From Actinomycetota bacterium (GTDB taxonomy: Bacteria > Actinomycetota > Actinomycetes > Nanopelagicales > Nanopelagicaceae): a stretch of 19,633 nucleotides of DNA. Shown here in pieces: positions 1,893 through 3,423 of this stretch. Positions within the stretch are counted from its first letter, which is position 1. Each line of letters begins with the position of its first letter. Location of the stretch: assembly GCA_947480375.1 (NCBI GenBank), contig CANKCX010000001.1:1-19633 (forward strand). The letters run 5' to 3'. Both the position numbers and the translations under genes were made by a program. The notes under the pieces were generated by a model, which had not been told where the DNA came from, did not search any database, and worked only from the letters and a program-made list of their open reading frames with translations.

Positions 1893-2420
1893 TTAGGCAC
1901 CTGCAACAATCTCAACGCCATCTTGACCGTCAATCTCACTCAATTGCACTCGTACGGTTTCAGATGCTGCGGTAGGAATATTTTTTCCAACATAATCGGC
2001 CCGAATTGGAAGTTCGCGGTGTCCGCGATCCACTAAGACAGCGAGCTGAACGGTCTTTGGTCTACCGATTTCGCCAAGCGCATCTAGCGCGGCACGGATT
2101 GTTCGTCCAGAGAAGAGAACATCATCTACCAGGATTACATCTTTACCTTCTATGCCACCCGCGGGAATTAACGTTGGAAGCAGAGGCCTTGGTGGTCGCA
2201 TCCGAAGATCATCGCGATGCAAAGTTATATCTAGAGTTCCGACAGGAACCGGAGATTGAATCTCCCCTAAAAATTGTGCGATGCGTTCGCCAAGAAATGC
2301 ACCACGCGTGGGAATGCCAAGTAGAACAACGTTTTCTAAACCGTGATTATGTTCAATGATTTCATGTGCAATGCGCTTAAGTGCACGGCCTATTTCGCCG
2401 GCGTCCAGGACTGTAGCCAT
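1893..2420 (-). CDS. pyrR: Pyrimidine operon regulator PyrR / uracil phosphoribosyltransferase
   Basis: PyrR is an RNA-binding repressor that senses UMP/UTP and keeps a uracil phosphoribosyltransferase activity. The 175-residue protein has the PRPP-binding signature [13 protein letters not shown] (acidic pair D99-D100), the [14 protein letters not shown] segment near residues 35-48, and a basic stretch [12 protein letters not shown] that fits the RNA-binding face of the family. Length is typical. It is the first gene of the pyr operon. An AAGGAG ribosome binding site sits five bases before the ATG and forms the 3' arm of a PyrR-binding hairpin, so the protein probably represses its own translation. 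The pyrB start follows its stop directly, which would pass that control to pyrB and pyrC. Confidence 0.97.
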
Positions 2421-2544: not shown

Positions 2545-2787
2545 ATGATAATAATTCCCGAACGTTCAATCGAAGAAATTGCAGCATCTATTAAGGCAGT
2601 ACGTAAATCCAAGGGCATGACACTCCGCGATGTCGAAATAGCCTCCGCAGGAATCTGGAAGGCGGTGGTGATTGGATCATATGAACGATGCGACCGAGCT
2701 CTTTCGATAAAAAAGGCAATTAACCTCGCCAATTTCTATCAAGTTCCGCTGGATGAACTCCTAGGGCTACACCACGAATATTCATAG
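2545..2787 (+). CDS. bldD: BldD-family transcription factor, N-terminal DNA-binding domain ending at in-frame TAG
   Basis: The 80-residue product is an XRE/Cro-type helix-turn-helix domain, residues about 14-70. The stretch WKAVVIGSYERCDRALSI followed by NLANFYQVPLDELLG closely matches, from memory, the DNA-binding domain of Streptomyces BldD, a developmental regulator. Streptomyces BldD is about 167 residues and has a C-terminal domain that dimerises on c-di-GMP. Here the reading frame meets TAG at 2785-2787 in the inter-domain linker, and the C-terminal domain continues in the same frame to 3030. As written, the protein would be a DNA-binding domain alone, without its ligand-driven dimerisation part. 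The gene lies between nusB and pyrR, a usual actinobacterial position, but on the opposite strand from both. No ribosome binding site is seen; translation is probably leaderless. Confidence 0.88.
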   Translation: MIIIPERSIEEIAASIKAVRKSKGMTLRDVEIASAGIWKAVVIGSYERCDRALSIKKAINLANFYQVPLDELLGLHHEYS

Positions 2788-3030
2788 CCAACACTTGAGA
2801 AAATAACGCTCGATATCCGAGCTACGAATAATTCAAATGGGCAAGAACCAGGAATGGATACCGTTAGAAATTTCGCCACCTTGATTTGCGCTAAACGACG
2901 CGATTGGAATGGTGAAGTTCTATCTATTCGCAGCTCTGATCTCACAACGCTCGCGCTTCTCGTAAATAGAGATGAAGAAACTACCTTTGAATGGTTAATT
3001 GCAAAAGGCTTGATCTTAAAGCGCAAATGA
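2788..3030 (+). pseudogene. bldD: BldD C-terminal c-di-GMP-binding domain, cut off from its N-terminal half by an amber codon
   Basis: In the same frame as the upstream domain, directly after the TAG, 80 sense codons run to TGA at 3028-3030. Read through, the whole protein would be 161 residues, close to the family length. The peptide contains RRDWNGEVLSIRSSD (2896-2940), which matches the BldD c-di-GMP signature RXD-X8-RXXD exactly (residues 118, 120, 129 and 132 in full-length numbering), followed by LTTLALLV and EWLIAKGLI as in the family. No frameshift or other stop is present. The only in-frame ATG is at 2854; it would remove the start of the domain and has no well-spaced ribosome binding site. 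The 3' end overlaps the nusB end by 15 bases. The feature could be a fresh nonsense mutation, a base-call error, or a readthrough product; the sequence alone cannot say. Confidence 0.85.
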
Positions 3031-3423
3031 GGGCTTGAGAATGATTATTCTCCCCAGAACTCCGTTTATATAGTTTGCAGAATCATCTGTAGAAATTTCT
3101 TTAGCAATTTCAATAGCTTCAGAGACCGCAATCTGATCGTCTAATTCATCTCTCCAAAGAATCTCAAGAAGAGCAATCCGTAAGATATTGCGATCAATCG
3201 CCGGCATCCGGTCCATATCCCAACCTTGGGCGTAAGTTGTTATCAATTCGTCAATCTTGATTCGGTGCTCTTCTACTCCAGATAAGAGTTCGGCCACATA
3301 AGTACCTTGTGAAAGTTCTTCGGCAGGTCTGCTACCTAGAAGATCGAGCGCTCTTGCACCACGAATATCTGCTTCGTATAAGAAATCTAAAGCACGCTTG
3401 CGCGCCTTACGGCGTGCGCTCAC
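3016..3423 (-). CDS. nusB: Transcription antitermination factor NusB
   Basis: NusB binds boxA RNA with NusE (ribosomal protein S10) and helps antitermination on rRNA operons. The 135-residue, all-helical protein begins MSARRKARKRALDFLYEADIR, the typical basic N-terminus, and has the family segments GWDMDRMPAIDRNILRIALLEIL (about residues 67-89) and AVSEAIEIAKEISTDDSANYINGVLG (about 98-123). The start is GTG at 3423, overlapping the efp TAG by one base (TAGTG), so translation is probably coupled. It is the last gene of the long minus-strand block and converges on bldD, with which its 3' end overlaps if bldD is read to 3030. No strong terminator follows it. Confidence 0.97.
   Translation of the reverse strand: MSARRKARKRALDFLYEADIRGARALDLLGSRPAEELSQGTYVAELLSGVEEHRIKIDELITTYAQGWDMDRMPAIDRNILRIALLEILWRDELDDQIAVSEAIEIAKEISTDDSANYINGVLGRIIILKPSFAL

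Follow-up and report, generated by a model that had tools for sequence, protein, structure and literature searches.

Among the genes of a 19,633-nucleotide stretch of the draft genome of an uncultured actinobacterium (hereafter the window), one that resembles bldD, the gene for a c-di-GMP-binding regulator, is interrupted by a single in-frame TAG codon, behind which the coding sequence continues in the same frame. What does such a stop mean: is the gene on its way to being lost, is the base an error in the consensus, does the cell make use of a shortened regulator, or is the stop read through by the ribosome? In the following, we describe the interrupted gene, compare it with its relatives and weigh these possibilities. 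The answer that we prefer, and consider rather probable though well short of certain, is that one nonsense codon in the interdomain linker has newly inactivated the only bldD found in this draft genome, and that the gene stands at an early stage of being lost.

The interrupted bldD frame

On the plus strand, the frame opens with an ATG at position 2545, runs for 80 codons to the TAG at 2785–2787 and goes on with 80 sense codons (2788–3027) to a TGA at 3028–3030, which amounts to 161 positions if the TAG is counted as one. Upon re-reading, the frame, the coordinates of both stop codons, the 80 codons after the TAG and the total length all proved correct in the original prediction. The gene is flanked by two open frames on the opposite strand, which, from their proteins and the order of the genes, we take to be pyrR and nusB. 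The features of the locus are as follows:

1893–2420, minus strand: pyrR, the left neighbour, an open frame of 175 amino acids
2533–2538, plus strand: -10-like element TATTCT, 6 bases 5' of the bldD ATG
2545–2784, plus strand: first half of bldD, 80 codons, with the DNA-binding domain of the XRE-type helix-turn-helix (HTH) class (PF01381)
2785–2787, plus strand: in-frame TAG, codon 81; the frame and the alignment of relatives place it in the variable linker between the domains
2788–3027, plus strand: second half of bldD, 80 sense codons, with the BldD-like C-terminal c-di-GMP-binding domain (PF21179 and signature)
3028–3030, plus strand: TGA that closes the full bldD frame, whose end overlaps the end of the convergent nusB
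3016–3423, minus strand: nusB, the right neighbour, an open frame of 135 amino acids

The -10-like element has counterparts (TATTCT, TATCCT or TAATCT) at the same distance from the bldD ATG in 16 near relatives (L003–L018), as judged by eye from the 30 bases upstream of each gene. The element and its spacing suggest a leaderless bldD transcript that would start at 2545, and a promoter that is still intact.

Domain composition and relationship to Streptomyces BldD

Two Pfam domains are recognized in the full frame, both above their cut-offs: HTH_3 (PF01381) at residues 16–72 and BldD-like_C (PF21179) at residues 86–155. Each is also found when its half is searched alone, the first half with its XRE-type HTH scoring 28.3 bits against the HTH_3 cut-off of 23, and the second half, in the same frame behind the stop, scoring 44 bits against the PF21179 cut-off of 27. 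Solved structures divide the protein in the same manner. Since the 71-residue chain 2ewt matches residues 10–73, and 4oay and others match residues 86–157, the TAG at codon 81 falls between the two domains. We take 2ewt to be the isolated HTH domain of BldD, and 4oay and the others to be BldD C-terminal domains.

The second half contains the motif RXD-X8-RXXD exactly (R118-X-D120-X8-R129-XX-D132), which the available parts of one study describe as the c-di-GMP-binding signature of BldD in Streptomyces (PMC4151990). With both domains and the exact signature in place, the assignment of the gene as bldD, the positions of the four signature residues and the intactness of the c-di-GMP-binding half are as they had been predicted. 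The likeness to Streptomyces BldD (NF050110; HTH_3 and BldD-like_C) extends to the order of the two domains, to the similarity of the HTH to 2ewt and of the C-terminal domain to 4oay and 5tzd, and to the identical signature. Likewise, bldD adjoins nusB in Saccharopolyspora erythraea, where the group pepQ-efp-nusB lies beside it, according to the accessible parts of the corresponding report (PMC3359211).

The window gene differs from Streptomyces BldD in being broken by the TAG at codon 81, and no single uninterrupted frame yields both of its domains. It also differs at the position equivalent to Arg130, a c-di-GMP contact in Streptomyces BldD, which, mapped by eye, is Thr in the window protein; the aligned relatives of the genus lack an Arg there as well. 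Against the NCBIfam equivalog model for BldD, the window protein, for which alone this score was obtained, reaches 115.5 bits and stays far below the cut-off of 250. Judged by its sequence, the window gene is a member of the BldD group by descent and only putatively a working BldD.

The stop codon among relatives

A match to bldD is present in 26 of the 27 genomes of the genus, the window's own (G000) included, and G000 is the only one in which the gene has an internal stop. As homologues span both halves in the 25 other genus genomes, the full frame is more than a chance opening. In a wider sample of the family, 161 of 201 genomes match bldD, and no other match listed contains an in-frame stop. 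When the relatives' copies are aligned with the query by codon, the TAG column holds a sense codon in 26 of 26, and the kinds of codon are many; accordingly, the comparison of this codon across related genomes, which had been proposed along with the original prediction, lists no relative with a stop at this position. The surrounding linker is itself variable, with none of the 11 columns at residues 75–85 invariant among 15 near relatives. Eight genes around bldD were followed through 23 related loci and show no in-frame stop in 167 matches, a count that leaves out the pyrC rows (20 of 187 matches). Two of the locus records, L030 and L051, are titled Bifidobacterium breve; their bldD loci match uncultured actinobacteria, and they are probably mislabelled.

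Constraint on the second half

The second half of the gene has evolved in the query as it has in the relatives. Its mean nonsynonymous difference is 0.269 for the query and 0.250 over the 105 pairs of 15 near relatives, whose own means range from 0.205 to 0.312, and the corresponding value for the first half is 0.101 both for the query and among the relatives; synonymous sites are near saturation in this comparison. Twenty-seven second-half sites are invariant in the 15 near relatives, and 26 of them are the same in the query. The one exception, Y148F, is conservative, and apart from the TAG there is no sign of decay in the gene; both points count against an inactivated gene.

In a neutral simulation, the probability of at most one change at these 27 sites was 0.20 at 0.05 substitutions per site, 0.054 at 0.08 and 0.021 at 0.1, and the terminal branch of the query in the bldD tree measures 0.31 substitutions per site. 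Given 26 of 27 sites kept on a terminal branch of this length, constraint was lost late on this branch, or never. A long-dead pseudogene is ruled out, since the second half is no less conserved than in the relatives; the argument that such a pseudogene would not be expected to keep the signature holds, with a second half that evolves like those of intact relatives.

A probable recent inactivation

Among the options that had been put forward for the TAG, a very recent nonsense mutation is the best supported, the stop being unique and the second half evolving normally. A recent nonsense pseudogene is characterized by a disabling change that is absent from its relatives, as is the case here, and one that is heading for loss by a single stop, a remainder like that of working relatives and the absence or breakage of the gene in some related genomes, all of which are found for the window bldD. 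Here, a recent nonsense codon in the linker would have inactivated the sole bldD found. With the promoter and the start intact, a fragment of 80 residues that contains the HTH would probably still be made, but, not being dimerised by c-di-GMP, it would be a weak repressor of its targets or none, so that the cell would in effect be a bldD null. It would stand at an early stage of the loss of bldD, as appears to have happened elsewhere in the family. We infer that the base is genuine and common in the population, and that the fragment has no activity. An intact copy of bldD may also lie on the unassembled part of the draft, which is 62% complete.

Relatives in which bldD is missing or damaged are consistent with this reading. 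In G024, a genome of the same genus that is 94% complete, only 100 bases separate pyrR from nusB, and bldD is absent from this gap (L062:3013-3112, G024:C4), and a search of the rest of G024 returned no match to bldD. In G073, which belongs to another genus (L119, G073:C128), the two halves of bldD lie in different frames and the gene seems to be broken once more towards its end, although these breaks may be draft errors. Of the family genomes, 99 have a completeness of 90% or more and a contamination of 5% or less. The query protein finds a match in 88 of these, and the C-terminal domain model likewise in 88; in the other 11, bldD is absent, too distant to detect or unassembled. Three further candidates were dropped: the apparently broken bldD of G165 has a run of N inside the gene, and the pieces of the split bldD of G103 and G190 lie at contig ends. 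On the evidence of these genomes, bldD looks dispensable.

If the interruption is real, it would show a global regulator caught at an early step of its loss, in a genus that seems to have little c-di-GMP machinery, and would point to cells that can do without BldD. A broken gene leaves the existing knowledge of BldD unchanged, and the case would be an ordinary one. In the accessible portions of the literature on BldD, which covered pseudogenes, nonsense mutations, c-di-GMP in freshwater bacteria and the domains of the protein, no report of this case was found, and a search for literature on c-di-GMP in Nanopelagicales returned nothing.

A possible sequence error or strain variant

The main rival to a recent inactivation is that the TAG is an error of sequencing or assembly, or a minor strain variant that entered the consensus, and that bldD is intact in the living population. 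We regard this as possible, if on the whole unlikely. It agrees with a gene in which all codons but one are normal, those of the second half included, with a stop that is seen in no other genome compared among the matches listed, and with the fragmented state of the genome, which is a draft in 145 contigs.

The overall quality of this assembly was gauged from 39 of the 145 contigs (426,182 bases including the window), which were compared with a reference set of 334 open reading frames of G020 and G009, matches being kept at 45% identity or more. The 186 reference matches obtained correspond to 129 distinct genes of the window's own genome (119,460 bases); for 116 of these, at least 80% of the gene is covered. 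A stop occurs in the alignment of 13 matches; in 12 of these, when they are read singly, it precedes the likely start or stands right at the end. This leaves bldD as the sole gene that is interrupted inside among the 129 tested; a further stop in the bldD alignment lies upstream of the start. Genes split between frames did not occur among the 186 matches from the 39 contigs. For the contigs tested, a poor assembly full of interrupted genes is thereby ruled out, and with 128 further genes uninterrupted, errors of this type must be rare here.

Because interrupted genes are rare both in the assembly and around bldD in the relatives, a careless consensus becomes less likely, and the absence or breakage of bldD in relatives makes a real mutation more likely. 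The draft genome yields one match to bldD only, and a scan of viral contigs turned up no relative that would point to a second strain. The base-call error that had been listed as an option is disfavoured by an otherwise clean assembly and favoured by the fact that a single wrong base in the consensus would look identical.

The proposal of a DNA-binding-only regulator

Could the 80-residue fragment instead be the functional product, that is, a c-di-GMP-independent or dominant-negative BldD for which the TAG is advantageous? The stop does fall between the domains (residues 74–85) and leaves a whole HTH of the kind that has been solved alone (2ewt), and the genome keeps a GGDEF protein with an intact motif. 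The linker, however, makes up about 12 of the 161 codons, and a random stop would fall there about 7% of the time, which weakens the argument from its position. In addition, no stop is found inside the bldD of any other matching genome of the genus. In Streptomyces, as described in the available parts of the same study, c-di-GMP activates the binding of BldD to DNA, and a bldD mutant was not complemented by a BldD that is defective in binding c-di-GMP (PMC4151990). The suggestion of a ligand-free, constitutive or dominant-negative regulator thus has the intact HTH half in its favour, and the failure of the non-binding Streptomyces protein, together with the relatives that lack or break bldD, against it. 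We consider it improbable.

Readthrough or restart of translation as an alternative

Even less probable, in our view, is that readthrough of the TAG, or a restart behind it, supplies a certain amount of full-length BldD, or a C-terminal domain by itself. TAG serves as a regular terminator in this genome. In the window, the genes efp, aroE and that of the prepilin peptidase end with it, as had been observed, and so do 56 of the 272 long open reading frames in the genome's own contigs; a recoding of all TAG codons, already deemed unlikely, is ruled out. The median distance to the next in-frame stop is 9 codons after TAG, much as after TAA (10) and TGA (8.5).

A second half that looks constrained into the recent past would fit readthrough, as would the GGDEF gene of G009, the one such gene found there, which also has one in-frame TAG and a well-kept remainder. 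Stretches of at least 60 open codons follow 8 of 57 long open reading frames that end in TAG, compared with 16 of 158 for TAA and none of 58 for TGA. In five of these eight TAG extensions, however, a start codon lies within 5 codons, as it would for a following gene. The other three (L066:8591, L069 and L074:4437, all in the genome's own contigs) continue for 64–138 open codons with no start codon near; two of them were compared with the reference open reading frames and gave no match, and all three are probably chance open frames.

Further observations bear on both routes. No suppressor tRNA was found by ARAGORN among the 8 tRNAs in 39 of the 145 contigs (426 kb of the 62% complete genome). 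Against a restart, the first in-frame start after the bldD TAG is 22 codons on and, as judged by eye, lacks a well-spaced ribosome-binding site. Moreover, no relative listed has a stop at the TAG position, so that readthrough here is no conserved feature, and the option of partial readthrough goes unsupported. That the GGDEF cyclase (in G009) and BldD (in the window's genome) are being shut off or throttled by leaky in-frame TAGs in this genus, with c-di-GMP control tuned by partial readthrough and not lost, strikes us as barely credible.

c-di-GMP signalling in the genus

The window's own genome encodes a GGDEF protein on contig C24, whose start is cut off by the contig end and whose motif is intact. 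A GGDEF match is present in 21 of the 27 genus genomes; that of G007 is a single weak one, and four others have a second, weak match. No match to EAL or HD_5 (HD-GYP type) was obtained in any of the 27 genomes at an E-value of 0.001, while, among 14 control genomes, the EAL search was positive in 6 and the HD_5 search in 4. From these profiles, c-di-GMP signalling in the genus seems to be minimal and to go hardly beyond one GGDEF cyclase and BldD.

An independent loss of the cyclase in the six genomes without a GGDEF match was considered and dropped, as missing assembly can explain it. All of these but G008 were checked for the photolyase gene that lies beside the GGDEF locus: in G016, this gene runs into the contig end, and in G022, G003, G001 and G025 it was not found.

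The TAGs in two genes of one small pathway are a curiosity and have no statistical weight, because it was the TAG in bldD that prompted the search. In G009, which belongs to the same genus, the sole GGDEF gene found (L061:2073-3449, G009:C11, minus strand) contains a single in-frame TAG, behind which come the GGDEF motif and a remainder of 101 well-kept codons; it is the only GGDEF gene with a stop among the matches listed for 201 genomes of the family.
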